Shown: one piece after another, positions 1-30,679 of the stretch
How the letters are laid out: each line of letters opens with the position of its first letter
Position numbering within the stretch: position 1 is the stretch's first letter
NCBI GenBank assembly: GCA_030038255.1
Contig: JASHPH010000119.1
Coordinates: 1-51,444 of the forward strand
Direction of reading: 5' to 3'
Length of the DNA: 51,444 bases
From: Candidatus Sulfotelmatobacter sp.
GTDB taxonomy: Bacteria; Acidobacteriota; Terriglobia; Terriglobales; Acidobacteriaceae
Made by a program: the position numbers and the translations under genes
Notes under the pieces: model-generated
The model's database searches: none
What the model was told of the DNA's origin: nothing
What the model saw: the letters and a program-made list of their open reading frames with translations, nothing else

Positions 1-32
1 GCGGGAACTCCGTGTATTCCGTCACTGGGAAT

Positions 33-48
33 AGTGATTTGACTCACA
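33..48. promoter_or_regulatory. CRP/FNR-type palindrome (box 1)
   Basis: AGTGATTTGACTCACA matches TGTGA-N6-TCACA with one arm mismatch. It is the leftmost of four such sites before the radical SAM gene end. Confidence 0.45.
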
Positions 49-118
49 TAATGGCCTTGGCCTGGCAGGGCGTCAGGGGCGAATTGCCCTCAGTTTGGAG
101 GAATTTCGGAGGCGGTTG

Positions 119-134
119 CGTGATTATAATCACA
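119..134. promoter_or_regulatory. CRP/FNR-type palindrome (box 2)
   Basis: CGTGATTATAATCACA is an almost perfect dyad (GTGATTATAATCAC). It is separated by only six bases from the next box. Confidence 0.55.
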
Positions 135-140
135 AATATT

Positions 141-156
141 TGTGATTCTGATCAAA
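141..156. promoter_or_regulatory. CRP/FNR-type palindrome (box 3)
   Basis: TGTGATTCTGATCAAA: the left arm is CRP-like and the right arm (ATCAA) is FNR-like. Its centre lies 22 bp, about two helical turns, from that of box 2, a spacing that would put two dimers on the same face. Confidence 0.55.
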
Positions 157-252
157 CATAGCCTGGATCAGCTACCCTGAGCTTTGGTCCGAAACCGGCA
201 CGATAGCGACGGCAGTTCACCACAATCCGGAGAAACCTGAATCACACCCGCC

Positions 253-268
253 TGTGATTCCAGTCATA
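253..268. promoter_or_regulatory. CRP/FNR-type palindrome (box 4)
   Basis: TGTGATTCCAGTCATA has a full left arm and a partial right arm. It sits just past the stop codon of the minus-strand radical SAM gene. Confidence 0.4.
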
Positions 269-295
269 AGACCGGGAATCAGTAGAGGGAACCCT

Positions 296-1438
296 TCAAC
301 TCTTCTGAGGAGGGACGTAGACGCAGCAGGGGTCCTCCGCGAAGAGATCACCGGTCATCGCATAGGCGCGGGCCCGCGACCCGCCACAAACGTTGCGCAT
401 TTCGCAACGACCGCACTTGCCCTTAAGTTGGGAACTATCCCGCAGGGACACGAACAAGGGTGAATCACCGAAGAGTTTCGCCAGTGGCTCTCTGGTCACG
501 TTGCCTGCCGAGAGCGGCAGGAAACGGCTGGGGTACACCTCGCCCTCATGGTTGATAAAAACAAAGCCCTTTCCGTCGTTCACGCCCTTGGGAGCGCACG
601 TGATGGCCTCCGACTCGGTCAAGTCGCCCCGCGACTCCCGCGACCGCTGCTGCAAAAGATAGCGCTGATAATGCTGGCCTTCTGTGGTTTTGATCTGAAA
701 GTGTACCCGCCTCGAGGCCGCGTACAGCTTGGCAAAAACCACCTCATGCTCCTCGGCGGTGAGCAGATCCGTTGCCTGATCCCGGTTTGCCGGCACCAGG
801 AAGAAGACATTCCACAAGGCCACGTCGAGACGAGCGAGCAACTCGATCATGGGATCGATATCGTGAAAATTGCGTCGCGCCACCAGTGTGTTGATCTGCA
901 CCGGCAGCTCCACATCTTGGCAAAACCCGATGGCATCGAGCGTCCGCTTATGCGCGCCGGCGGCCTTCCAGTAGGCATCATCCAGTGCGGCGGTCGAGCC
1001 GTTCATCCACAAAGCCAGGCGCATCAGGCCGTGCGCTTTCAGCTCCGCAACGGTCTCGGCATGCAGCCTCGCAGTCGGAGGCAGCGTCAGAGAAGTTCTC
1101 ACCGAGCGGCGGGCCGCAAACTCGACAATGGGAAACAGATCCGGGCGCTGTAGCGGATCGCCGCCCGTGAGCACGAGCAGTGGCACGTGCATGGCCGCCA
1201 CTTCTTCGATCAGATGAAAAGCTTCGGCGGTCGAGAATTCCTTCTTGTCCCGGACAGACCGCGCGCCGCGTGCGAGCGCGGATTTCCCGTTGCAGGCTGG
1301 CGTCATCTCCCACGTCACTTGCAGTGGCCGCAGCTGAAAATTCGGACCGTTCGACGCCAAACTAGACCGGCCGGCCGCAGAAGACGAGACCTTTCCGGCA
1401 GTGGCCGCCCGCACGGGTTTTGCCAAGGCATTCGACAT
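296..1438 (-). CDS. Radical SAM/SPASM domain protein with a degenerate 4Fe-4S motif
   Basis: This 380-aa protein resembles the NirJ/AhbD-like radical SAM/SPASM family (TIGR04053-like) in its WEMTPACN start, TGGDPL (residues 91-96), the ITCAPKGVNDGKGF stretch and the C-terminal cysteine-rich SPASM end (CGRCEMRNVCGGSRARAYA, then a CC pair). Relatives bind SAM through a CX3CX2C cluster and modify haem precursors or peptides. Here the cluster motif reads C49-NGK-S53-AL-A56, so two of three cluster cysteines are replaced with the spacing kept. Unless this is a sequence error, radical SAM chemistry should be lost or altered. The SPASM cysteines look intact. The gene is divergent from a cytochrome c, sharing a 191-bp promoter region with two CRP/FNR-type boxes, so a link to haem or cytochrome maturation is plausible but inferred. 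Confidence 0.88.
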   Translation of the reverse strand: MSNALAKPVRAATAGKVSSSAAGRSSLASNGPNFQLRPLQVTWEMTPACNGKSALARGARSVRDKKEFSTAEAFHLIEEVAAMHVPLLVLTGGDPLQRPDLFPIVEFAARRSVRTSLTLPPTARLHAETVAELKAHGLMRLALWMNGSTAALDDAYWKAAGAHKRTLDAIGFCQDVELPVQINTLVARRNFHDIDPMIELLARLDVALWNVFFLVPANRDQATDLLTAEEHEVVFAKLYAASRRVHFQIKTTEGQHYQRYLLQQRSRESRGDLTESEAITCAPKGVNDGKGFVFINHEGEVYPSRFLPLSAGNVTREPLAKLFGDSPLFVSLRDSSQLKGKCGRCEMRNVCGGSRARAYAMTGDLFAEDPCCVYVPPQKS

Positions 1439-1629: not shown

Positions 1630-1947
1630 GTGAAACAACTTTTCATTCGGGCAACCCTGGTAACGCTGTTGGCAGTTGGTATCGTCGCTCTCTATAGTCC
1701 ATCCGCCGCGGCGCAGGATGCAGCGGGAACCTTCAAAGCCAAGTGCGCCATGTGCCATGGAGCTGACGGTAAGGGCGGTAAGATGGGAACCCGCGACTTT
1801 GCTTCGCCTGAAGTAAAGGCCGAAACCGATGCCCAACTGACTGTGATCATCACCAAGGGCAAGGGCAAGATGCCGGCGTACGAAGGCAAGCTGAAAGATA
1901 CGGAGATCAAGGACCTGGTTGCCTATGTTCGCAGTCTAGCGAAGTAG
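1630..1947 (+). CDS. Monohaem class I cytochrome c, periplasmic
   Basis: This 105-aa protein has a signal peptide (hydrophobic residues about 5-24, cleavage near AAAQ) and one haem motif, CAMCH, at about residue 38, followed by GADGKGG as in small class I cytochromes c. A late methionine in KMPAYEG is the likely sixth haem ligand. It would shuttle single electrons in the periplasm. A strong ribosome site (AGGAGG, 1618-1623) supports the start. It precedes the multihaem operon by 85 bp and is the likely soluble partner of those membrane cytochromes. Confidence 0.93.
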   Translation: MKQLFIRATLVTLLAVGIVALYSPSAAAQDAAGTFKAKCAMCHGADGKGGKMGTRDFASPEVKAETDAQLTVIITKGKGKMPAYEGKLKDTEIKDLVAYVRSLAK

Positions 1948-2032: not shown

Positions 2033-4099
2033 ATGCCAACGCAGGCAAAACGGAATGTTTTTGCGCTTGGCAGCGCTCTCACCCTCTTCTTAACCGTTGG
2101 CGCTGCGCGGTCTGCCGCGCCACAATCTCCCAGCACCGACGATTGTCTCGCCTGCCACAGCGATAAAACCCTAACTACCAAACGCGGCGCGCGCACCGTC
2201 TCTCTTTTTGTAGACGGCAAGAAGTTCGCTTCTTCCGTGCATGGCTCGCTCTCATGCACCAACTGCCACGCCGACCTTGATGGCAAAGACCTGCCGCACT
2301 CAACGCCTTTGGCGCGCGTTCAGTGCGGGACCTGCCATAGCACTGAACAGAAGCAGCATTCGCAGTCCTTGCACGGCAAAGCCATCGCCCGCGGTGACCC
2401 GCTCGCTCCGCACTGCGTCGATTGCCACGGCAATCACGACATTGTGGCTGTCCGGGATCGAAACTCGGCCGTGGCTCCGCTGAATGTTCCTTTCGTGTGC
2501 GGAAGGTGCCACCAGGAGGGCACGCCGGTTCAGCTCAATCGCAACATTGACCAGCACAACATCCTGGAGAACTATTCCGAGAGCATTCACGGCGAGGCCC
2601 TGCTCAAGAAAGGCCTGGTGGTTGCAGCCAATTGTGTCTCCTGCCACACTCCGCACAACATCCTCCCCCACACCGATCCCAATTCTTCCATCAACCGGCG
2701 CAACATCGCGGCGACCTGCACCAAGTGCCACGCTGAGATTGAGACGGTGCACCGCAAGACCATCCGCGGCGAGCTCTGGGAAAAGGAAGCTCACGTTCTC
2801 CCGGCATGCGTGGACTGCCACCAGCCGCACAAGATCCGGAATGTCTTCTACAGCCAGGGCATGGCCGACGCCGATTGCATGCGCTGCCACGCCAACGAAA
2901 AGCTGAAAGCGGCGGACGGCCGCAGCATGTTCGTGAGCGCCGCCGAGATCGCTGCCTCGCGGCATGCCAATCCGCGCACGCAGGCGACGCCTGTGTCCTG
3001 CAGCCAGTGCCACTCCGAAGTCAACGCTTCCCGTGTGCGGCCTTGCGAGACCATCACTCATCCGGTCGACTGCAGCCGCTGCCACGTCGAGGTCGGACAG
3101 CAGTTCCAGCGCAGCAAGCACGGTCAACTCCTCGCAGCCAACGATCCCAACGCACCGAGTTGCAGGGACTGCCACGGCACGCATCGCATTCTCGACAAGC
3201 GTGATCCGCAGTCGAGGACTTTCTCCACCAACGTGCCCAACCTGTGCGCCACCTGCCACCGCGAAGGCCAGAAGGCGGCAGTCCGCTACACCGGCACACA
3301 GCACGAAATCATTCAGCACTACAAAGAAAGCATTCACGGCAAGGGCCTGCTGCGCAGCGGATTGACGGTCACTGCAACCTGCACGAATTGCCACACGGCG
3401 CACATGGTCCTGCCCGCGTCAGACCCCCAGTCCTCGGTCAACCCGAAAAATGTTCCTTCGACCTGCGGCGCTTGTCACCACGGCATTGAGGAACAGTTTG
3501 AGCAGAGCGTTCACTCGCGCCTGGTGACCAAAACCGACAAGGAACTTCCTGTTTGCAACGACTGCCACAGCGCCCACACCATCCGCCGCACCGACGACAC
3601 CGGCTTCATGCTTGACATCATGGATAAGTGCGGCAAATGCCACAGCGAGATCGCCAAGACTTATTTCGACACCTATCACGGCAAAGTGTCGCGCCTAGGC
3701 TACACCAAAACGGCAAAGTGCTACGACTGCCACGGCGCGCATGACATTCTGCCGCCCACCAATCCCCGCTCGCATCTGAGCCGCGCCAATGTGGTCGCAA
3801 CCTGCCAGAAGTGCCACGCCACCGCAACTCGCCGTTTTGCCGGCTATTTGACTCATGCCACACACCACGATCCCAAGAAATATCCGTTCCTGTTCTGGAC
3901 GTTCTGGGGTATGACCACGCTTCTGATCTCGACTTTCGTGATGGGTGGCATGCACACCCTGCTCTGGCTGCCGCGTGCATTGCAGATGCGCCGCGACCTG
4001 AAGGCCGAAGAAGCACGGGAAGAACAGGAAGAGGCGGGACAGTTGAACGGTCCCGGCAGCGAAAGAAATTCGGGCGAGGAGGGCTCCCATGCCGACTGA
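2033..4099 (+). CDS. 19-haem cytochrome c with C-terminal membrane anchor
   Basis: This 688-aa protein has a signal peptide (about residues 1-28), 19 CXXCH motifs and one C-terminal membrane segment (about residues 620-645), followed by a charged Glu-rich tail. Many motifs come as CXXCHGxH or CXXCHTxH, where the second His can ligate a neighbouring haem, as in the cytochrome c3-like/octahaem families. Two successive seven-haem blocks align with each other, showing internal duplication. No substrate-binding or catalytic domain is recognisable, so the likely role is electron storage or wiring at the outer face of the inner membrane. The next gene, a cytochrome b, overlaps it by 11 bp, suggesting translational coupling and a bc-type complex. 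Confidence 0.9.
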   Translation: MPTQAKRNVFALGSALTLFLTVGAARSAAPQSPSTDDCLACHSDKTLTTKRGARTVSLFVDGKKFASSVHGSLSCTNCHADLDGKDLPHSTPLARVQCGTCHSTEQKQHSQSLHGKAIARGDPLAPHCVDCHGNHDIVAVRDRNSAVAPLNVPFVCGRCHQEGTPVQLNRNIDQHNILENYSESIHGEALLKKGLVVAANCVSCHTPHNILPHTDPNSSINRRNIAATCTKCHAEIETVHRKTIRGELWEKEAHVLPACVDCHQPHKIRNVFYSQGMADADCMRCHANEKLKAADGRSMFVSAAEIAASRHANPRTQATPVSCSQCHSEVNASRVRPCETITHPVDCSRCHVEVGQQFQRSKHGQLLAANDPNAPSCRDCHGTHRILDKRDPQSRTFSTNVPNLCATCHREGQKAAVRYTGTQHEIIQHYKESIHGKGLLRSGLTVTATCTNCHTAHMVLPASDPQSSVNPKNVPSTCGACHHGIEEQFEQSVHSRLVTKTDKELPVCNDCHSAHTIRRTDDTGFMLDIMDKCGKCHSEIAKTYFDTYHGKVSRLGYTKTAKCYDCHGAHDILPPTNPRSHLSRANVVATCQKCHATATRRFAGYLTHATHHDPKKYPFLFWTFWGMTTLLISTFVMGGMHTLLWLPRALQMRRDLKAEEAREEQEEAGQLNGPGSERNSGEEGSHAD

Positions 4100-4982
4100 A
4101 CTGGAGCTGCGTTCCCCGGAGGTGCGCCCCTTGCGGGCAGCCGAACGAAAACGGCCCGAGCGCGAGTTCGTGCGCTTCACCCGCCTGCAGCGCACGCTTC
4201 ACGCTTGCATGATCCTGAGCTTCCTCAGCCTCGCCACCACCGGCTTGACTCTGAAATTTTCCTACACGACGTGGGCCGCGATGGTCTCACGCTTCCTCGG
4301 CGGATTCCAGGTCGCCGGCTTCATTCATCGCAGCGCCGCCGTTCTGATGTTCGGGGTCTTTATCACTCACTTGTACAGCCTGGTGAAACTGAAGAGGCAA
4401 GAGTACAAGTCCTGGCGCGCCATGATCCTCGGTCCTGACACCATGCTGCCCACGCCTCAGGACCTGAAACAGTTCATCGCCACCATGCGGTGGTTCATCG
4501 GCATGGGCCCGCGTCCGCAATACGGCCGCTGGACCTACTGGGAGAAATTTGATTATTTCGCGGTGTTTTGGGGAATCGCGGTCATCGGTTCGACCGGTCT
4601 GACCCTGTGGTTTCCGATTTTCTTTACGCGCTTCATACCCGGCTCATTTATTAACGTCGCTACCGTGATTCACAGTGACGAAGCCTTACTGGCCACGGGC
4701 TTTATTTTTACCGTGCACTTCTTCAACACTCATTTGCGGCCGGAAAAGTTCCCCATGGATACGACCATTTTTACCGGCCACATGCCCCTGGCCGAACTGA
4801 AGCGCGACAAGCCTTTGGAATACGAATCTCTGCTGAGCTCTGGTCGTCTAGAAGAGCATATGGAGGAGCCGCAGCCGGAGATCGTGGTGCGTACGATCCG
4901 CTTTTTGGCCTGGATCGCGCTCAGTATCGGTTTCAGCATCGTGATCTGGATCATTTACGCGATGCTGTTTGCCTACAAGTAG
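4089..4982 (+). CDS. Membrane cytochrome b subunit (FdnI/HydC/b561-like)
   Basis: This 297-aa integral membrane protein has about five hydrophobic segments and histidines placed as in dihaem cytochromes b of formate dehydrogenase and Ni-Fe hydrogenase (H in RTLHACMILS, IHRSAAVL, ITHLYSL, IHSDEALL, VHFFNTHLRPEKFPMD). Such subunits exchange electrons with the quinone pool. Its sequence is recognisably homologous to the C-terminal half of the next protein (RWTYWEKFDYFAVFWG versus RFTYAEKAEYWALVWG). It starts inside the end of the 19-haem gene and is probably its quinone-reactive partner. Quinol oxidation rather than reduction is inferred, not shown. Confidence 0.88.
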   Translation: MPTELELRSPEVRPLRAAERKRPEREFVRFTRLQRTLHACMILSFLSLATTGLTLKFSYTTWAAMVSRFLGGFQVAGFIHRSAAVLMFGVFITHLYSLVKLKRQEYKSWRAMILGPDTMLPTPQDLKQFIATMRWFIGMGPRPQYGRWTYWEKFDYFAVFWGIAVIGSTGLTLWFPIFFTRFIPGSFINVATVIHSDEALLATGFIFTVHFFNTHLRPEKFPMDTTIFTGHMPLAELKRDKPLEYESLLSSGRLEEHMEEPQPEIVVRTIRFLAWIALSIGFSIVIWIIYAMLFAYK

Positions 4983-5032: not shown

Positions 5033-7165
5033 ATGAGAGCCGTAAAACATCTCCGTCGGCTGGTTTGCGCGGGCTCATTTTTCCTCTTTTTCTTCATAGT
5101 CCCTGGCCGCTCCTGGGCGTCACCCCCATCGGATCAGGACTGTCTGGTCTGCCACGGCGAAGCCGGCATGAAGTCTGATTCCGGCCGCAGTCTCCACGTG
5201 GATGCCGCCAAGTTTAATGCCAGCATGCACGCCGCCTTGGGATGCACTGGCTGTCACACCGGCGTGAAGGAATATCCGCATCCGAAGAAGATGCAGCTCC
5301 CCAAGTGCTCCACTTGTCACGAAGATCCGACCACGCAGATGCCGAAGAGTGTCCACGCGGTCTTGGGCGACGGTGCTGCCGCCTGTGCGAGTTGCCACGG
5401 CAAAGCTCACGAAGTGCAGGAAGCAGCAAAGATCGTGCCGCAGCAATGCGCCACCTGCCACGAAGATGCTGCCCACGGCTACGAGGTTGGCGTCCATGCC
5501 GCGGCCCGCAAGGACGGCGACGGACAAGCTCCCACCTGCACCACCTGCCACGGCGGCCCTCACCAGATTCTGGCGGCTGACGACCCCAATTCCCCGGTCA
5601 ACCACGTTCGCATCCCCGCGACCTGCGCCCAGTGCCACGGACAAAAAGTTGTCATGGAGCGTGCTGGATTCAGCACCCAACCTTTCTATTCGTATGAAGA
5701 GAGTGTGCACGGCAAGGCGGTCGCGGCGGGATCCACCAAGGCCGCTGTTTGCACCGACTGTCACGGTGTGCACGAGATTCGCCCGGCCAGCGACGATAAG
5801 TCATCCATCTTCAAGTTCAACGTGCCCGCCACCTGCGCCAAATGTCACAATGCCGTGGAGCAGCAGTTCATGCAGAGCATTCACGGTCAGGCCATCCGGC
5901 ATGGCAACTCGCAGGCGCCGGTCTGCACCGATTGTCACGGCATTCACTCCATCAAGTCGCACGTCGATCCCAATTCCTCAGTCGCCGCGCAGAACCTGGC
6001 GCGCACCACCTGCGGCAAATGCCATGAAGGCGTGCGGCTTTCGCAGGAATTGGGCCTCGAGGGCCGCCGCGCCACGACGTATCTCGCCAGCTATCACGGC
6101 CTCGCTGCCCGGGGTGGATCGCAAGTCGTCGCCAACTGTGCCAGTTGTCACGGTGTGCACAACATTCTGCCGTCGAGCGATCCCCGTTCCACCATCAACC
6201 AGGCCAATCTCGCCCGGACGTGCGGCCAATGCCATCCCGGCGTCACCGAAAAATTTGCCAGCTCCAAGGTTCACGTGGACGCGCCGCTTTCCGCCGACAT
6301 CGGCAGCAAGGCTGTGCGCTGGATTCGCAAGTTCTACCTGGGCATGATCTTCGCCGTCATCGGCGGCATGCTGCTGCACAACTTCATCATCTGGCGCGCC
6401 AAAACCATCGCCAAGCGAAAGACCGAACATGAATTCGTCGAGCGCATGCCGCTGCGCTTCCGGTGGCAACACGCCGCCCTGCTCAGCAGCTTCATCGTGC
6501 TGGTGCTCACCGGCTTCGCCCTGAAATTCCCCGATTCCTGGTTCGCCGCCTTGCTCTCGATGGGTGAGGCCAAACGGCATCTGCTGCACCGCATCGCGGC
6601 CGTTGTGCTGATTGCTGTCAGTATCTACCACCTGTTCGACGCCATTCTTACCCGCGAAGGGCGCAGACTGGTCCGCGATCTGTTCCCTGCGCTGGACGAC
6701 GCGCGCACCGCGTGGCAAAATCTTGCCTACTATCTCGGCCTGACTTCGCGGAAGCCCGAGTTTCCGCGCTTCACTTACGCCGAGAAAGCCGAGTATTGGG
6801 CGCTGGTCTGGGGCGTGATCGTCATGGCCGTGACCGGCATCATGCTGTGGGCGAAGGTGTTCGTGGGGAACCATCTGCCGTGCTGGTGGCTTGATATCGC
6901 AACCGCAATTCACTTCTACGAGGCTGTGCTGGCGACTCTCGCCATCATCGTCTGGCACTTCTATCAGGTCTTCCTCGACCCAGACGTCTATCCGATGAAC
7001 TGGGCCTGGTGGGACGGAAAAATGTCCGCGCACCACTATCGCGAGGAGCACGGCCTGGATCGCGGCACCTTGCAGGATGCGGCTCTGACCGAGATTTCCG
7101 ACGCCAGCCTCGACACCATCGTTGATGAACAATCCGACTCCGCCGAGGTCAAACATGGACAATGA
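5033..7165 (+). CDS. 13-haem cytochrome c fused to a cytochrome b domain (CbcL-like architecture)
   Basis: This 710-aa protein has a signal peptide (about residues 1-29), 13 CXXCH motifs up to about residue 405, then a membrane cytochrome b domain with five hydrophobic segments and conserved histidines (LLHRIAAV, SIYHLFDAIL, AIHFYEAVLA, VWHFYQVF). The order multihaem c then HydC/FdnI-type b is that of Geobacter CbcL, an inner-membrane quinol oxidase feeding periplasmic cytochromes. That parallel is by architecture only. The start at 5033 is chosen because ATG 5027 runs into a stop at once; AGGAG lies just before. The 3' end overlaps the next gene by 11 bp. It is effectively a fused version of the two preceding genes. 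Confidence 0.9.
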   Translation: MRAVKHLRRLVCAGSFFLFFFIVPGRSWASPPSDQDCLVCHGEAGMKSDSGRSLHVDAAKFNASMHAALGCTGCHTGVKEYPHPKKMQLPKCSTCHEDPTTQMPKSVHAVLGDGAAACASCHGKAHEVQEAAKIVPQQCATCHEDAAHGYEVGVHAAARKDGDGQAPTCTTCHGGPHQILAADDPNSPVNHVRIPATCAQCHGQKVVMERAGFSTQPFYSYEESVHGKAVAAGSTKAAVCTDCHGVHEIRPASDDKSSIFKFNVPATCAKCHNAVEQQFMQSIHGQAIRHGNSQAPVCTDCHGIHSIKSHVDPNSSVAAQNLARTTCGKCHEGVRLSQELGLEGRRATTYLASYHGLAARGGSQVVANCASCHGVHNILPSSDPRSTINQANLARTCGQCHPGVTEKFASSKVHVDAPLSADIGSKAVRWIRKFYLGMIFAVIGGMLLHNFIIWRAKTIAKRKTEHEFVERMPLRFRWQHAALLSSFIVLVLTGFALKFPDSWFAALLSMGEAKRHLLHRIAAVVLIAVSIYHLFDAILTREGRRLVRDLFPALDDARTAWQNLAYYLGLTSRKPEFPRFTYAEKAEYWALVWGVIVMAVTGIMLWAKVFVGNHLPCWWLDIATAIHFYEAVLATLAIIVWHFYQVFLDPDVYPMNWAWWDGKMSAHHYREEHGLDRGTLQDAALTEISDASLDTIVDEQSDSAEVKHGQ

Positions 7166-8690
7166 AAAGACTCCACCGCTCATGGTGGAGCCCTGGCACC
7201 GCTCCCGCATGCTGCTGCGCAATCCTGTCAGCCTTGCGGGAGTCGCGCTGACGATTGTCAGCGCTGCGAACATTTTCATTTTTGTTTTGATCGACGCTAT
7301 CGCCGTCAAGCCCAGCCCTTACGTCGGAATTCTGGCTTACATGGTGTCGCCAGGCTTCATGATCCTGGGGATGCTCCTCATGCTGGCCGGCGCGTTGCTC
7401 GAACGGCGCAAGCATTTGCCACCCTCCGCCTTCTACCCCCGTGTTGACCTGAACGACTCGACCCAACGCAGCGCTGTGATTTCGTTCATCACGTTTCTCA
7501 TCGTCTTCGTCGCGGTCAGCGCAGCAGGCAGTTACAAAGCCTACGAGTTCACCGAATCCACGTCGTTTTGCGGACAGCTCTGCCACACCGTGATGATCCC
7601 GGAATACACCGCGTATCAGCTCTCTCCCCACGCCCGTGTGGCCTGTGCGGAATGCCACGTGGGAGCCGGTGCAACGTGGTTTGTGAAGTCCAAGCTCTCC
7701 GGGACGCGGCAGGTATTCGCCACGGTGTTCAACACTTTTCCCCGACCCATCCCTTCGCCGGTGCACAACCTGCGCCCCGCCCAGGAAACCTGCGAACAGT
7801 GCCACTGGCCCAAGAAGTTTTACGGCGCTCAGCTTAAAGTTTTTTCGCACTACGCCGACGACGAGAAGAACACGCTGCATCAGATCCGGATGCTGATCAA
7901 GACCGGCGGTGGAGATCCCGCCACGGGCGCACCGGAAGGCATTCACTGGCACATGAACATCGGCAACCGGATTGACTACCTCGCGGCCGATGAGAAACGG
8001 CAAATTATTCCCTACATCCACGTCGAAGACATGCAGGGGCGCGTCACCGAGTATTACGCCAAAGATTCAACTCTGACCAAAGACCAGATCAAAGCCCAGA
8101 TCGCCAGAGGGGCAACGCATCACATGGACTGCGTGGACTGTCACAACCGGCCCACGCACATCTATGTTCCGCCCGATCTTGCTGTCGATCAGTCGCTGCT
8201 CGCACGCCACCTCGACGTTTCCCTCCCCTTCATCAAGCAGCAAGCGGTCACGGTATTGACCGCGAACTACAAAACCGGCGACGAAGCCATGCGCGGGATC
8301 GCCAGCGGCGTGCAGGATTTCTACGAGAAGAAATATCCCGACGTGGCGAAGACGAAGCAGCTCGAGATTCGCAATGCCGTGACCGAAATTCAGCAGATCT
8401 TCGGCCGCACCACCTTTCCCGACATGAAGCTGAATTGGCAGACCCACCCCAACAACCTGGGCCACTACTACTATCCCGGCTGCTTCCGCTGCCACGACGG
8501 CCAGCACGTCAGCGCCGACGGCAAGGTGATCAGCAAGGACTGCAACCAGTGCCACACCATGATGGCCGAAACGGAAGGCACGGCCACGGCAGCGATTCCC
8601 CCTGCGCCACCCTTTCAGCATCCTGTGGATATCGGCGATCTGACCCAGGTCAACTGTGCCGACTGCCACACCGGCGGCACAGGCCCCTAA
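7155..8690 (+). CDS. NapC/NirT-like multihaem cytochrome c, membrane anchored
   Basis: Starting at ATG 7155 (GAGGT ribosome site just before), this is a 511-aa protein. The same frame is open to 7122. Three hydrophobic segments come first (about residues 20-45, 55-80, 105-130), then a NapC/NirT/NrfH-like haem domain. The first haem motif is CGQLCH, a CX3CH variant, and six CXXCH motifs follow (CAECH, CEQCH, CVDCH, CFRCH, CNQCH, CADCH), giving seven potential haems. NapC-type proteins oxidise quinol and pass electrons to periplasmic reductases. Here no nitrate or nitrite reductase gene follows, so the acceptor is unknown. It is the last gene of the cytochrome operon. Confidence 0.88.
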   Translation: MDNEKTPPLMVEPWHRSRMLLRNPVSLAGVALTIVSAANIFIFVLIDAIAVKPSPYVGILAYMVSPGFMILGMLLMLAGALLERRKHLPPSAFYPRVDLNDSTQRSAVISFITFLIVFVAVSAAGSYKAYEFTESTSFCGQLCHTVMIPEYTAYQLSPHARVACAECHVGAGATWFVKSKLSGTRQVFATVFNTFPRPIPSPVHNLRPAQETCEQCHWPKKFYGAQLKVFSHYADDEKNTLHQIRMLIKTGGGDPATGAPEGIHWHMNIGNRIDYLAADEKRQIIPYIHVEDMQGRVTEYYAKDSTLTKDQIKAQIARGATHHMDCVDCHNRPTHIYVPPDLAVDQSLLARHLDVSLPFIKQQAVTVLTANYKTGDEAMRGIASGVQDFYEKKYPDVAKTKQLEIRNAVTEIQQIFGRTTFPDMKLNWQTHPNNLGHYYYPGCFRCHDGQHVSADGKVISKDCNQCHTMMAETEGTATAAIPPAPPFQHPVDIGDLTQVNCADCHTGGTGP

Positions 8691-8807: not shown

Positions 8808-8823
8808 TGTGATTCTAATCACA
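8808..8823. promoter_or_regulatory. CRP/FNR-type palindrome (box 7), perfect
   Basis: TGTGATTCTAATCACA has both five-base arms intact. It lies about 116 bp before the oxidoreductase start and likely controls it. A second, imperfect dyad with a 7-base spacer follows at 8830-8846. Confidence 0.65.
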
Positions 8824-8931
8824 ACCCGCTGTGAACCTGGGTCACGACAGACCCACTCCTTGTCCTGCATCCTGATGTCATCGTAGCGGTTACGCCCGTA
8901 GCCGCCGATAAGTTTGTTTTGGGGGATGTCA

Positions 8932-11900
8932 ATGAAGCGCAAAGTCAAGACCATCGACGGCAATGAGGCCGTCGCGCATGTCGCATACCGGGTAAGCGAA
9001 ATCATCGCGATTTACCCCATCACCCCTTCCTCGCCGATGGGCGAGTGGGCCGACCAGTGGGCCTCCGAGCTGCTGCCGAACGCCTGGGGAAGCGTGCCCC
9101 ATGTCATCGAAATGCAGAGCGAAGGCGGCGCCGCTGGCGCTGTCCACGGCGCCCTGCAGACCGGTTCGCTTTCCACAACGTTCACGGCCTCGCAAGGCCT
9201 GCTGCTGATGATTCCGAACATGAACAAGATCGCCGGCGAGCTGACTCCGACCGCGTTCCACGTTTCCGCGCGCACCGTCGCCACGCACGCACTCTCGATC
9301 TTCGGCGACCACTCCGACGTTATGTTCTGCCGCACCACCGGCTTCGCCATGCTCTGCTCGAACTCGGTGCAGGAAGCGATGGACCTCGCCCTGATCGCTC
9401 ATGCCTCGTCACTGGAAACCCGCATTCCATTCCTTCATTTCTTCGACGGATTCCGCACCTCGCACGAGGTCAACAAGATCGAAATGCTCGAGGACGACGA
9501 CATCCGCGCCATGATCAACATGGAGCGCGTTATCGAGCACCGCCAGCGTGCACTCTCGCCCGATCACCCCGTGCTGCGCGGCACAGCGCAGAACCCCGAT
9601 GTCTTCTTCCAGATTCGCGAAACTGCCAATTCGTATTACGACGCGGCTCCGGCCAAAGTGCAGGCCGTGATGAACAAGTTCGCCGAGCTAGTCGGGCGCC
9701 AGTATCACCTGTTCGACTACGTCGGAGCGCCCGATGCTGAGCGCGTCATTGTCATGATGGGATCGGGCGCAGAAGTCGCGCACGAAACCGTCGATTACCT
9801 GAACGCCGGCGGCGAAAAAGTCGGCCTGCTAAAGGTCCGCCTGTATCGGCCCTTCTGCGTGAAGTCGTTTATCGGGGCTCTCCCCGCAACCGTCCGCCAG
9901 ATCGCCGTCCTCGATCGCACCAAGGAGTCTGGCGCCATCGGCGAACCGCTATATCTTGACGTTGTGAACGCACTGCACGAAGGCCTGAAACTCGGCTACG
10001 GAACGTTGAAGGCGGCTCCGGGTGTGGTCGGCGGGCGTTACGGCTTGTCGTCGAAAGAGTTCACCCCTGCCATGGTGAAGTCAGTCTACGACAACCTGAA
10101 GCCGCCCACGCCGGGTCGCCCAATAAAAGATCATTTCACCGTCGGCATCAACGACGACGTCACGCACACCAGCCTCGACTACGATGCCACCTTCTCGACC
10201 GAGCCCGACAGCGTCATCCGCGCCATGTTCTACGGCCTGGGCGCAGACGGCACTGTCGGTGCCAACAAGAACTCAATCAAGATTATCGGCGAGAACACCG
10301 ACAACTATGCCCAGGGATACTTCGTCTACGACTCGAAGAAATCCGGCGCCATGACCGTCTCGCACCTGCGCTTCGGCCCGCAGCCGATCAAGTCGAGCTA
10401 CCTCGTCTCGAAAGCAAACTTCGTCGCCTGCCATCAGTGGATCTTCCTCGAGCGCTACGACATGCTCAGCTCGCTGGTCGAAGGCGGCGTTTTCCTGCTC
10501 AACAGCCCGTTCGGCAAAGACGAAGTCTGGGACCACCTGCCGCGCGAAGTGCAGGAGCAACTGATCGCCAAGAAAGCCAAGTTCTACATCATCGACGCCT
10601 ACAAGGTGGCCCGCGACACTGGCATGGGCTCGCGCATGAACGTCATCATGCAGGTCTGCTTCTTCGCGATTTCAAAGGTTCTTCCCGGCGACGAAGCCAT
10701 TGAAGCCATCCGCCAGTCCATTCGCGACACCTACGGCAGAAAAGGCGAAGAAGTCGTCGCCAAGAACATGCGTGCCGTCGATGAAACCCTGGCGCACCTG
10801 TTCGAAGTAAAAGTTCCCGCTAGCGTGACCAGCAAAATCGAAATTCCCGGCGTCTTCCCCGGCGCGCCCAAGTTCGACCGGGAAGTGCTCGGCGCCATTT
10901 ACGCCGGCAAGGGCGACGAACTCCCCGTCAGCGCATTCTCCTGCGACGGCACCTTCCCCACCGGCACCGCCCGGTGGGAGAAGCGCAACCTGGCCCTTGA
11001 GATTCCCGCATGGGACACAAAAATCTGCATTCAGTGCGGCAAGTGCGCCATGGTCTGCCCGCACGCCGTGATCCGCATCAAGGTATACGACAGCAAGGAA
11101 CTCGCCAACGCACCAGCCACGTTTAAATCCTGCGACGTCCGCGACAAGGAATGGGCCGGCATGAAGTACACCATCCAGGTCGCACCCGAAGATTGCACCG
11201 GATGTGGCGTCTGCGTCGACATCTGCCCGGTCAAGAATAAGAGCGAAGTGCGGCTCAAGGCGATCAACATGGTTCCGCAGCCGCCGTTGCGCGAGCCTGA
11301 AAAAGACAATTGGGAATTCTTCCTCAAGATTCCCGAACTCGATCGCCGCAAGATCAAGGTTGGCACCATCCGCCAGCAGCAAATCCAGGAGCCGCTGTTC
11401 GAGTTCTCTGGCGCCTGCGCCGGTTGCGGCGAGACCCCTTATCTGAAGCTGATCACGCAATTGTTTGGCGACCGCACCATCATCGCCAACGCCACGGGCT
11501 GCTCTTCGATTTACGGCGGCAACCTGCCCACCACCCCGTGGGCCAAGAACGCCGACGGCCGCGGCCCGGCGTGGTCAAATTCTCTGTTCGAAGACAACGC
11601 CGAATTCGGCCTTGGCTTCCGCATCTCGATTGACAAGCAGACCGAATACGCCCGCGAACTGCTTCTCTCCCTTGCTGACAAAGTCGGTGAGGATCTGGCT
11701 GCCGCCATCCTGAACGCTACGCAAAAAGACGAAGCCGACATTTACGACCAGCGCCAGCGGGTCGACATCCTCAAAGAGCGTCTGAACCAGCTGACTTCCC
11801 CGCAAGCTCGTCAGCTCCTCGCCCTCGCCGACATGCTGGTGAAAAAATCCGTCTGGATCGTCGGCGGCGACGGCTGGGCGTACGACATTGGCTACGGCGG

Positions 11901-12552
11901 CCTCGATCACGTCCTAGCCAGCGGCCGTAACGTGAACATGCTCGTCCTCGACACCGAGGTCTACTCCAACACCGGCGGCCAGGCCTCCAAGTCAACGCCT
12001 CGCGCCGCCGTCGCAAAATTCGCCGCCGGCGGCAAACCCACTCCCAAGAAAGATCTTGGACTCATGGCCATGACCTATGGCAACGTTTATGTCGCCAGCG
12101 TTGCCATGGGCGCGAAAGATGAACACACGCTCAAGGCGTTCCTCGAAGCCGAAGCCTACGACGGCCCCAGCATCATCATTGCGTACTCGTCGTGCATCGC
12201 CCACGGTGTGGACATGACCACCTCCATGACCGATCAGAAAGTTCTAGTGGATTCCGGCGAGTGGCTGCTCTATCGCTTTAACCCCGAACGCGCGGCCGTG
12301 GGTGAAAACCCGCTGATGCTCGACTCCCGCGCTCCCGCGCGCAAGGTGCAGGATTATCTGCTACAGCAGACGCGCTTCAAGATGCTGACTAAGAGTCACC
12401 CGGAAGACGCTGAGCGTTTATGGAAACTGGCGCAGGAAGATGTGGAACGGCGCTATCGCATGTACGAATACATGGCCAGCCGCAAACCGGAAGCGGCTGC
12501 CGCGAAGGAATCGGTTGAGAAACCCCTGCCTGCAGCAGGCGCACCAAAATAA
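8932..12552 (+). CDS. nifJ: Pyruvate:ferredoxin (flavodoxin) oxidoreductase
   Basis: This protein of about 1206 aa is a single-chain fusion of all oxidoreductase domains, the usual length for NifJ. It converts pyruvate and CoA to acetyl-CoA and CO2 while reducing ferredoxin or flavodoxin. Visible parts are the N-terminal pyrimidine-binding domain (NEAVAHVAYRVSEIIAIYPITPSSPM), the two-cluster ferredoxin domain (CIQCGKCAMVCP from about residue 699 and CTGCGVCVDICP from about 755), the proximal-cluster cysteines (CAGCGETPY) and the thiamine diphosphate domain (GDGWAYDIGYGG, then DTEVYSNTGGQ). ATG 8932 is chosen for the GGGGG tract 6 nt before it; ATG 8926 and TTG-type upstream starts are possible. 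A CRP/FNR-type box upstream fits induction under low oxygen. Confidence 0.96.
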   Translation: MKRKVKTIDGNEAVAHVAYRVSEIIAIYPITPSSPMGEWADQWASELLPNAWGSVPHVIEMQSEGGAAGAVHGALQTGSLSTTFTASQGLLLMIPNMNKIAGELTPTAFHVSARTVATHALSIFGDHSDVMFCRTTGFAMLCSNSVQEAMDLALIAHASSLETRIPFLHFFDGFRTSHEVNKIEMLEDDDIRAMINMERVIEHRQRALSPDHPVLRGTAQNPDVFFQIRETANSYYDAAPAKVQAVMNKFAELVGRQYHLFDYVGAPDAERVIVMMGSGAEVAHETVDYLNAGGEKVGLLKVRLYRPFCVKSFIGALPATVRQIAVLDRTKESGAIGEPLYLDVVNALHEGLKLGYGTLKAAPGVVGGRYGLSSKEFTPAMVKSVYDNLKPPTPGRPIKDHFTVGINDDVTHTSLDYDATFSTEPDSVIRAMFYGLGADGTVGANKNSIKIIGENTDNYAQGYFVYDSKKSGAMTVSHLRFGPQPIKSSYLVSKANFVACHQWIFLERYDMLSSLVEGGVFLLNSPFGKDEVWDHLPREVQEQLIAKKAKFYIIDAYKVARDTGMGSRMNVIMQVCFFAISKVLPGDEAIEAIRQSIRDTYGRKGEEVVAKNMRAVDETLAHLFEVKVPASVTSKIEIPGVFPGAPKFDREVLGAIYAGKGDELPVSAFSCDGTFPTGTARWEKRNLALEIPAWDTKICIQCGKCAMVCPHAVIRIKVYDSKELANAPATFKSCDVRDKEWAGMKYTIQVAPEDCTGCGVCVDICPVKNKSEVRLKAINMVPQPPLREPEKDNWEFFLKIPELDRRKIKVGTIRQQQIQEPLFEFSGACAGCGETPYLKLITQLFGDRTIIANATGCSSIYGGNLPTTPWAKNADGRGPAWSNSLFEDNAEFGLGFRISIDKQTEYARELLLSLADKVGEDLAAAILNATQKDEADIYDQRQRVDILKERLNQLTSPQARQLLALADMLVKKSVWIVGGDGWAYDIGYGGLDHVLASGRNVNMLVLDTEVYSNTGGQASKSTPRAAVAKFAAGGKPTPKKDLGLMAMTYGNVYVASVAMGAKDEHTLKAFLEAEAYDGPSIIIAYSSCIAHGVDMTTSMTDQKVLVDSGEWLLYRFNPERAAVGENPLMLDSRAPARKVQDYLLQQTRFKMLTKSHPEDAERLWKLAQEDVERRYRMYEYMASRKPEAAAAKESVEKPLPAAGAPK

Positions 12553-28226: not shown

Positions 28227-28242
28227 TGTGATTAGAATCACA
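28227..28242. promoter_or_regulatory. CRP/FNR-type palindrome (box 9), perfect
   Basis: TGTGATTAGAATCACA has both arms intact. It lies in the divergent region between the zinc-ribbon gene and the TonB receptor gene, nearly mid-way, so it could act on either. Confidence 0.65.
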
Positions 28243-28354: not shown

Positions 28355-30679
28355 ATGTCCAATCGAATGCACAAAATAACTGTTGCTCTCTTTCTTTCTG
28401 CGATCGCATTGCCCTCTGTGTTCGCGCAGGTCACTCGCGTGGAAGGCATTTTGCGCGATCCCACCGGCGCGGTCCTAGCCGGCGGATCGGTGGTCGTGCA
28501 GGCAGGGTCATATCGGGCCTCGACTAAGACTGACTCTCGCGGGCACTTCATTTTTGCAGCGGTGCCTTCGACCTCAGGGACTGTCGAAGTTAGAGCTGCG
28601 GGATTCAGCGACAGGCGTCAGTCCTGGAATGGGGGAAATTCCGGCGTTGTGAGTCTGGACATCGTGCTGCAGCCGGCTTCCGCCAGCGAGCAGGTGACCG
28701 TTTCAGCGTCACGCACCGAGATGCGGCTGTCTGAAACTCCGGGCAGCACGGTGCTACTTTCCACGACCGACATGGCTGCTACGCCTGCCGTGCGGATTGA
28801 CGACACGTTGCGCCAGGTCCCTGGATTTTCCCTTTTCCGCCGCTCCGACAGCCAGACCGCGAATGCTTCGAATCAAGGGGTGTCGTTGCGTGGACTGGGC
28901 GGAACAGCCTCCAGCCGTGCCGTCGTGCTTGAAGACGGCCTGCCCCTGGTGGACGCTTTCGGAGGGTGGGTTTATTGGGATCGCGTCGTGCGAGAGGAGC
29001 TTTCGAGCGTCGAAGTTTTCCGTGGCGGCGCTTCCAATCTCTACGGCAGCGATGCGCTCGGCGGAGTCGTGCAATTCATCAGTCGCCAGCCGGAGGAGCC
29101 GGCGCTCGCCCTGGAGACGACGTATGGCAATGAGCGGACTCCTGATCTTTCCTTTTGGACCGGAACGCGAGCGGGCCCCTGGGATTTTTCCCTGGCCTCG
29201 GAGATGTTCCGCACGGATGGGTTCATCATCGTTCCCACCTGGCAGCGCGGATCGGTCGACACGCCCGCGAATTCGGAAGATGCGACGGTAGATCTAAACA
29301 TCGGTCGCCAACTCGGCGACAAAGGCCGCGTGTTTACGCGCGGCAACTTCTTCACCGAGTTCCGCCACAACGGCACGCCCATCCAAACCAATGACACGCG
29401 TATGGCGGAAGGTGCGTTGGGTCTCGACAAGCAATTCAACGCAAACGACTCTTTGACTCTTCGAGCCTATGGCCTGGTGCTGGGCTACAACCAGAATTTC
29501 TCATCGGTGGCCGCTGATCGTGACAGTGAGTCGCTCACTGATTTCCAGCATGTCCCTGAACAGGTGGGTAGCGGCGCGGTGCAGTGGACGCATCTTCTCG
29601 GCTCGCACCAAACGCTGATTGCCGGCGCAGATCTGATGGAAGTCATGGGAGCCAGCGACGAGCAATTTTTCACCGCCGGGGTGAACACGCGCGACAATGC
29701 CTCCGGCGGCAGGCAGCGAATCCTGGGACTCTTCGGCGAAGACTTGGCACGCTGGCAGGACTGGACCATCATTCTCGCGGCGCGGGCTGACGACTGGAAC
29801 GACTTCAATGCAAGTTCCATCTGCACTCCGGTTGCAGGCGCCTGTCCCTCGCCGAATGTGCTGTATCCAGAGCGCAGCGATCTCGCGTTCAGCCCGCGCC
29901 TTTCGGTGCTGCGGACCTTGAACCGCAACGTTTCGCTGACTGGCTCGATGTATCGCGCTTTTCGCGCGCCTACGCTGAATGAGTTATACCGCACATTTCG
30001 CGTAGCCAATGTGCTGACCCTGAACAATCCCTACCTCAACGCTGAGCGGCTTACCGGTGCGGAGGCCGGGATGAACATCATGGCGCTCGACCGCAAGCTC
30101 GATTTGCGAGGGACATTCTTTTGGAGCGACATTGTTGATCCGGTTCAGAACGTCACCATCAATCCAAGTTCCAGCCCGGTTCTGCGGGAAAAAGAAAACG
30201 TGGGCCGGATTCGCTCGCGGGGTGTTGAAATCGACGGCATCGTGCACATCAGCCACGATATCCAAATCACGGCCGGCTATGAATTCACCGCCGCCAGGGT
30301 TGTGAACTACATCGTGCCGCAGGGTGAGGTTTCGTTGTTAGGAAATGAAGTCGCACAGGTGCCGCGCAACGTCTTTACATGGGAGGCGCGATATTGGAAC
30401 CCGTCACGCTTTCTGTTGAGCGTCGAAGGGCGACTTGTGGGCAAGCAGTTCGATGACGACCAGAATCAGTATCCGCTGGGCCGCTTCTACACGATGGATT
30501 TCGAGATTGGGCGTAACCTCACACGCAATCTAGAAATTTTTGCCGCAGCAGAGAACATATTCGACGAACGCTACGAGGTCGCGAACACTCCGACTGCGAA
30601 CGGATCGCTCTTCAATATCGGCCCGCCGATTCTCTATCGCATCGGCTTGCGGTTGAATTTTCCATCGGAGCGACCGTAG
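28355..30679 (+). CDS. TonB-dependent receptor (BtuB/siderophore-receptor type)
   Basis: This 774-aa protein has a signal peptide (ending VFAQ), a short carboxypeptidase-regulatory-like domain (about residues 28-108), a TonB box-like VTVSASRTE, a plug domain (about 115-240; VRIDDTLRQVPGFSLFRR, GGASNLYGSDALGGVVQF) and a 22-strand-type barrel ending YRIGLRLNF with terminal-region Phe. It is of the size of vitamin B12 or siderophore receptors, unlike the large Oar-like receptor at 19.3 kb. Two CRP/FNR-type boxes upstream suggest expression with the cytochrome genes, so a metal, haem or cobalamin ligand is a reasonable guess. ATG 28367 is an alternative start. Confidence 0.9.
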   Translation: MSNRMHKITVALFLSAIALPSVFAQVTRVEGILRDPTGAVLAGGSVVVQAGSYRASTKTDSRGHFIFAAVPSTSGTVEVRAAGFSDRRQSWNGGNSGVVSLDIVLQPASASEQVTVSASRTEMRLSETPGSTVLLSTTDMAATPAVRIDDTLRQVPGFSLFRRSDSQTANASNQGVSLRGLGGTASSRAVVLEDGLPLVDAFGGWVYWDRVVREELSSVEVFRGGASNLYGSDALGGVVQFISRQPEEPALALETTYGNERTPDLSFWTGTRAGPWDFSLASEMFRTDGFIIVPTWQRGSVDTPANSEDATVDLNIGRQLGDKGRVFTRGNFFTEFRHNGTPIQTNDTRMAEGALGLDKQFNANDSLTLRAYGLVLGYNQNFSSVAADRDSESLTDFQHVPEQVGSGAVQWTHLLGSHQTLIAGADLMEVMGASDEQFFTAGVNTRDNASGGRQRILGLFGEDLARWQDWTIILAARADDWNDFNASSICTPVAGACPSPNVLYPERSDLAFSPRLSVLRTLNRNVSLTGSMYRAFRAPTLNELYRTFRVANVLTLNNPYLNAERLTGAEAGMNIMALDRKLDLRGTFFWSDIVDPVQNVTINPSSSPVLREKENVGRIRSRGVEIDGIVHISHDIQITAGYEFTAARVVNYIVPQGEVSLLGNEVAQVPRNVFTWEARYWNPSRFLLSVEGRLVGKQFDDDQNQYPLGRFYTMDFEIGRNLTRNLEIFAAAENIFDERYEVANTPTANGSLFNIGPPILYRIGLRLNFPSERP

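Follow-up and report, generated by a model that had tools for sequence, protein, structure and literature searches.

Radical SAM pseudoenzymes are scarcely described; a full-text literature search turned up four papers, in each of which radical SAM is mentioned once. The haloarchaeal pseudo-SAM/SPASM family TIGR04347 belongs, by its NCBIfam name, to the same superfamily branch as the protein treated here and is without a functional radical SAM site. The closest characterised relative by score is the haem b synthase AhbD (TIGR04545), in which the AuxII cysteine set reads CX2CX5CX20-38C and AuxI is additionally present in a subset of AhbD (PMC10452713). In SkfB, Ser211 forms the ribose motif and Arg223 positions the SAM carboxylate and ribose (PMC6231123). 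A literature search on TIGR04053 and pseudo-SAM/SPASM proteins found nothing relevant.

The window, i.e. the whole stretch of DNA analysed here, comprises 51,444 nucleotides from Candidatus Sulfotelmatobacter sp. (contig JASHPH010000119.1). Its minus strand carries one uninterrupted 380-codon frame, the translation of which reads VTWEMTPACNGKSALARGARS, then LTGGDPL. The first features are as follows.

296-1438, minus strand: predicted pseudo-radical-SAM/SPASM protein, 380 residues, TIGR04053-derived (open frame; TIGR04053 357 bits; clade of 13).
1271-1294, minus strand: degenerate cluster motif C49-NGK-S53-AL-A56, CX3CX2C spacing preserved (translation, orthologue comparison).

The codons concerned are 1294-1292 (C49), 1282-1280 (S53) and 1273-1271 (A56). 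The sequence-only reading had given this motif, with its spacing unchanged, as the product of substitution and not of a frameshift; the translation bears out the first point, and the open frame together with orthologues that likewise lack the motif bears out the second. TIGR04053 was the best NCBIfam match (E 1e-106), its 357 bits lying under the curated cut-off of 395. It was followed by AhbD (277 bits, cut-off 500), with NirJ2 (167 bits), NirJ (133 bits) and TIGR04347 further down, the last at 128 bits against a cut-off of 525 and below the AhbD and NirJ2 scores. Ten other members of the pseudo clade scored 321-368 bits against TIGR04053, all below 395, and the five intact relatives that were scanned scored 406-478 bits. 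The Pfam model Radical_SAM (PF04055) matched at 32.1 bits over residues 60-201 only, leaving the cysteine loop outside the match, and the Pfam SPASM score was marginally below its cut-off.

Orthologues were surveyed in 45 genomes of the genus Candidatus Sulfotelmatobacter and were found in 13, several of them from peat or soil; this count includes the window genome, to which the other 12 copies are 61-91 % identical. Twelve copies are full-length and one is truncated at a contig end. CX3CX2C was missing from all 12 copies that span the site (window plus 11 orthologues): the cysteines at positions 53 and 56 were gone in 12/12, while C49 was retained in 11/12. The loop reads CDRKSALAR in the 91 % identical sister (L005/L034), CDWKASHAR in L007, CDWKATHTR in L008 and CKWKVVSSR in L015; in L011 (GGGKAATAR) all three cysteines are lost. 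An intact motif in close relatives, which the sequence-only reading had named as evidence against itself, was sought and was absent from the orthologues at 61-91 % identity. It was present only at 60 % and below (L062, L063, L016, L065 and others read), the nearest relatives of the pseudo clade having 58-60 % identity and intact motifs. The loss in 11 full-length orthologues, taken with the intact motif at ≤60 %, excludes chance and read error.

In a quick maximum-likelihood tree with the loop columns removed, the 13 copies formed a single clade (SH-aLRT 100) nested among intact TIGR04053 members and joined its nearest intact relatives with an SH-aLRT of 97; the tree implies one change of motif state. 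No pseudo-clade member was found outside the genus in samples of 300 family genomes and 399 class genomes. Read from these sequences, the motif loss is single, old and fixed, and the clade is so far confined to Candidatus Sulfotelmatobacter. On the nearest intact branch, L065 (G174:C140) keeps CX3CX2C, has CVQC for CVHC and GLDG for SLDG, and sits on a long branch; it may be heading toward the same change. A TIGR04053 gene of another genus (L058, G049:C170, 7386-8451) is broken into two frames around residue 217, which may reflect a frameshift.

The 13 pseudo sequences were compared with 12 intact sequences for positions that are conserved in each set yet differ between them. These are, from intact to pseudo, I42T, F88L, Y107F, A121P, S144W, D146H (N in the window), R157W, S210N, R258Q and G305R. 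Four of these sites and two retained motifs lie in the window as follows.

998-1009, minus strand: SLDG changed to W144-M-N146-G (W-L-H-G in most of the clade); S144W in 13/13, D146H in 12/13.
968-970, minus strand: R157W; tryptophan in 12/13 pseudo sequences, arginine in all 12 intact ones; equivalent of SkfB Arg223.
524-526, minus strand: G305R (PSGFL to PSRFL); R in 13/13 pseudo, G in 12/12 intact sequences.
1157-1165, minus strand: GGD at residues 92-94, the counterpart of the SAM amino-group motif GGE; kept without change in all intact and pseudo sequences.
323-415, minus strand: AuxII/Twitch cysteines C342, C345, C351 and C372 (CX2CX5CX20C); invariant in 50/50 aligned sequences.

SAM contacts were mapped by profile alignment to SkfB (6efn), in which residues 144 and 157 align with chain positions 213 and 225 and GGD with 162-164. 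Since the SkfB paper numbers GGE 160-162, an offset of two, residues 144 and 157 correspond to Ser211 and Arg223. By this alignment two SAM anchors are replaced by tryptophan across the clade. At the other end of the protein, C342/C345/C351/C372 match the AhbD CX2CX5CX20-38C set (PMC10452713). The AuxI position is Ser304, as it also is in intact TIGR04053 members, and by its aligned cysteines the TIGR04053 family has one auxiliary (AuxII/Twitch-type) set, not two. The earlier statement that the SPASM cysteines are kept thus stands for the invariant AuxII set, but its plural clusters reduce to one. His146 and His174, conserved elsewhere in the clade, were attractive candidates for conserved haem ligands but were rejected, as the window copy has N and Q at these positions.

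An AlphaFold2 model of the 380-residue protein gave a confident barrel (pLDDT 86, pTM 0.83) with one segment of interest.

1262-1288, minus strand: former cluster loop, residues 51-59, predicted to be disordered (AlphaFold2 pLDDT < 50).

The AlphaFold2 model of an intact relative had no low-confidence segment at this loop. The best fold match in the PDB was PqqE (6c8v), and SkfB (6efn), SuiB and MoaA also matched; together with PF04055, these matches identify a partial TIM barrel with a GGE-type motif. The protein is very probably a pseudoenzyme. It would be unable to hold the SAM-binding [4Fe-4S] cluster or to generate a 5'-deoxyadenosyl radical, Trp144 and Trp157 would occupy the SAM site, and one auxiliary [4Fe-4S] cluster would still be bound at C342/C345/C351/C372.

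Upstream of the gene, on the opposite strand, lies a set of cytochrome genes.

1630-1947, plus strand: monohaem cytochrome c (PF13442, 60 bits; divergent neighbour in the loci of nine relatives).
2033-4099, plus strand: multihaem cytochrome c, 19 CXXCH.
4089-4982, plus strand: cytochrome b561-like membrane subunit (weak PF01292, under the gathering score).
5033-7165, plus strand: multihaem cytochrome c (13 CXXCH) fused to a cytochrome b561-like domain.
7122-8690, plus strand: NapC/NrfH-like multihaem cytochrome, start possibly internal (PF03264 43.8 bits; TIGR03153 53 bits).
8914-12552, plus strand: gene that we take to be pyruvate:ferredoxin oxidoreductase (PFOR)-like (open frame; perfect palindrome upstream at 8808).

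In all covered carriers except G016 the pseudo gene and a monohaem cytochrome c gene point away from each other, and the latter is followed by genes for multihaem cytochromes, cytochrome b561-like and NapC/NrfH-like proteins and a PFOR-like protein. The window (2033-4982), L034 and L044 have the 19-CXXCH cytochrome with a separate cytochrome b, in place of which the remaining carriers that were read show one 11-CXXCH form. On the other flank, part of the carriers have genes for a 128-residue cysteine-rich protein, an OsmC-like protein, a CRP/FNR-family regulator and what is presumably an acyl-CoA synthetase/acetyltransferase-like protein. The cysteine-rich protein of about 128 residues (L044:7594-7992, L034:7474-7860, L046:14060-14437; motif CPNxCDPxRPHPCxxCLLExFVP...PCRxI) had no match in Pfam or NCBIfam and occurs in 37/45 genomes of the genus, beside both TIGR04053 genes and the cytochrome operon. 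Intact TIGR04053 genes of other genera have parts of the same neighbourhood, and in G077 such a gene comes after a related cytochrome cluster. The operon and the 128-residue gene occur without the pseudo gene in G002, G006, G012, G039, G042 and G043 and also at the G016 cytochrome locus. The cytochrome operon was ruled out as an obligate partner by these six related genomes and by G016, which has the gene elsewhere; the link to a cytochrome gene set drawn by the sequence-only reading is real but not exclusive.

Compared with window positions 3-545, the end of contig C253, a second contig of the window genome (G000; L003, L046), encodes the last 81 residues of this protein at 96 % amino-acid identity. 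C253 was rejected as the direct continuation of the window contig because the 545-base overlap has only 81 % DNA identity; its end is, as far as these sequences tell, either this locus as it stands in a related population, the MAG being mixed, or an additional copy. It served as a synteny guide only, and the 91 % sister (L034) confirms the synteny.

The region around the gene is rich in predicted operators of the CRP/FNR type, recognised by consensus match.

1496-1546, no strand: two CRP/FNR-type palindromes (1496-1511 and 1531-1546) in the divergent promoter region (consensus match).
119-268, no strand: further CRP/FNR-type palindromes at 119, 141 and 253, past the 3' end of the gene (consensus match).

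Nine palindromes with at most one mismatch were counted in the window against 1.0 expected from shuffles, and six of the nine lie in the first 1.6 kb. A TGTGA-N6-TCACA-type pair, 34-35 bp apart, was found upstream of the gene in 12/12 full-length clade members (up to two mismatches allowed, nearly all with 0-1). In L034 the gene for the 128-residue cysteine-rich protein begins just past the boxes equivalent to those at 119-268, and a CRP/FNR-family regulator gene is close by in several loci. Such boxes also stand upstream of several intact TIGR04053 genes and in the cytochrome promoter of genomes without the pseudo gene. In G016 (L040) the pseudo gene lies amid unrelated genes with its palindrome pair still present, which allows the pair to be taken for the gene's own predicted promoter element. 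Perfect or near-perfect palindromes were also seen at 8808, upstream of the PFOR-like gene, and at 28227 and 28286, upstream of the gene at 28355; they suggest a wider regulon.

Motif loss throughout the clade, a dN/dS of ∼0.1, the rebuilt SAM site, the retained AuxII cysteines and the conserved palindromes together point to a selected pseudo-radical-SAM protein, probably a non-catalytic accessory of a CRP/FNR-regulated respiratory cytochrome module. It would act as a binding or electron-relay accessory in anaerobic respiration, turned on by a CRP/FNR regulator; a possible ligand would be the tetrapyrrole or protein substrate of AhbD-like ancestors, the ancestral chemistry being left to an intact TIGR04053 paralogue that these genomes also encode. 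Several observations weigh against this explanation: GGD and most of the barrel are conserved, so that weak binding of SAM or another ligand is possible; C49 persists in 11/12 copies; the loss of His146 and His174 from the window copy speaks against essential histidine ligands; and the same cytochrome operon exists without the protein. A fuller version, in which a radical SAM fold became an Fe-S/tetrapyrrole-binding accessory of multihaem respiration with two tryptophans filling the SAM site and the auxiliary cluster as its working cofactor, is put forward tentatively and is rather doubtful as a whole. Partnership with the intact paralogue and haem carriage would be the main specific versions of the accessory reading.

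An intact TIGR04053 paralogue, 83-90 % conserved, is present in 12/13 carriers (in two of them as contig-edge pieces) against 5/32 non-carriers, and in the window genome it adjoins a monohaem cytochrome gene. By analogy with catalytic/non-catalytic pairs elsewhere, the pseudo protein might form a heteromer with this paralogue and serve in it as a regulator or scaffold. The paralogue is, however, also found alone and is only 34 % identical to the pseudo protein; the carriers may simply be a single branch of the genus, in which case the association could stem from shared ancestry, and we consider a heteromer unlikely. G002, G004 and G025 hold another intact TIGR04053 member at 44-46 %.

Attachment of c-type haem is periplasmic. 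It is also improbable that the protein is a haem or tetrapyrrole carrier which arose from an AhbD/NirJ-like enzyme and supplies haem to the neighbouring cytochromes, since it has no signal peptide apparent by eye, no conserved new axial ligand is retained by the window copy and the cytochrome operon exists without the gene. Consistent with such a role are the second-best family match to AhbD, the adjacent genes, which encode some 39 c-type haem sites as well as b-type domains, and HemW, a radical SAM relative described in the literature as a haem chaperone.

A dispensable enzyme drifting towards loss of its frame would explain the fast-evolving former cluster loop, the two clade-conserved histidines lost in the window copy and the absence of the gene from some relatives of the carriers. 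Within the pseudo clade, loop identity is 0.44 against 0.73 for the remainder, the reverse of intact members (0.72 against 0.66). Decay is nevertheless very unlikely: every one of the 13 copies (one cut off where its contig ends) has an open frame, with dS reaching about 1.4; pairs within the clade have dN/dS values of 0.09-0.15 (intact pairs, 0.03-0.11), new residues are fixed clade-wide and the palindrome pair was preserved after relocation. Between window and sister, dN/dS is 0.11 for the gene and 0.06-0.14 for its cytochrome neighbours. Of the two fates first suggested for the protein, dead or repurposed, the latter fits better with purifying selection, new invariant residues in the SAM pocket and the palindrome pair.

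A mistake in sequencing or assembly, first named as the main alternative, or a frameshift later compensated would be in keeping with a draft genome of 423 contigs and a gene at a contig end. It has practically no chance of being correct, being refuted by the same loss, with differing loop residues, in 11 independently assembled genomes, by the dN/dS of about 0.1 and by the absence of CX3CX2C, read by eye, from the other two frames of the gene.

The selected pseudo-radical-SAM protein favoured here offers a clean natural case, with the SAM cluster motif gone, the auxiliary-cluster site under selection and intact sisters for comparison. With it one can test what role an auxiliary cluster and SPASM-type domain have where radical chemistry is absent, and it opens a way into TIGR04053, an uncharacterised family. 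With intact TIGR04053 members the clade shares the fold, TGGDPL and the AuxII cysteines, as well as the CRP/FNR-type boxes upstream of several of them and neighbours such as the 128-residue cysteine-rich protein; it differs in lacking CX3CX2C, the Ser and Asp of SLDG and Arg157, in having PSRFL and in its lower scores. AhbD shares the C-terminal CX2CX5C...C AuxII set but, unlike the pseudo protein, keeps CX3CX2C and is catalytic. PqqE and SkfB, at about 16-20 % identity, are active, with cluster and SAM contacts intact. Relative to TIGR04347, the loss is a separate one, in a different family and a different domain of life. This kind of protein is thus already known through TIGR04347, and the present clade is, from its sequences, a second case that arose separately and in which the SAM pocket has been rebuilt.
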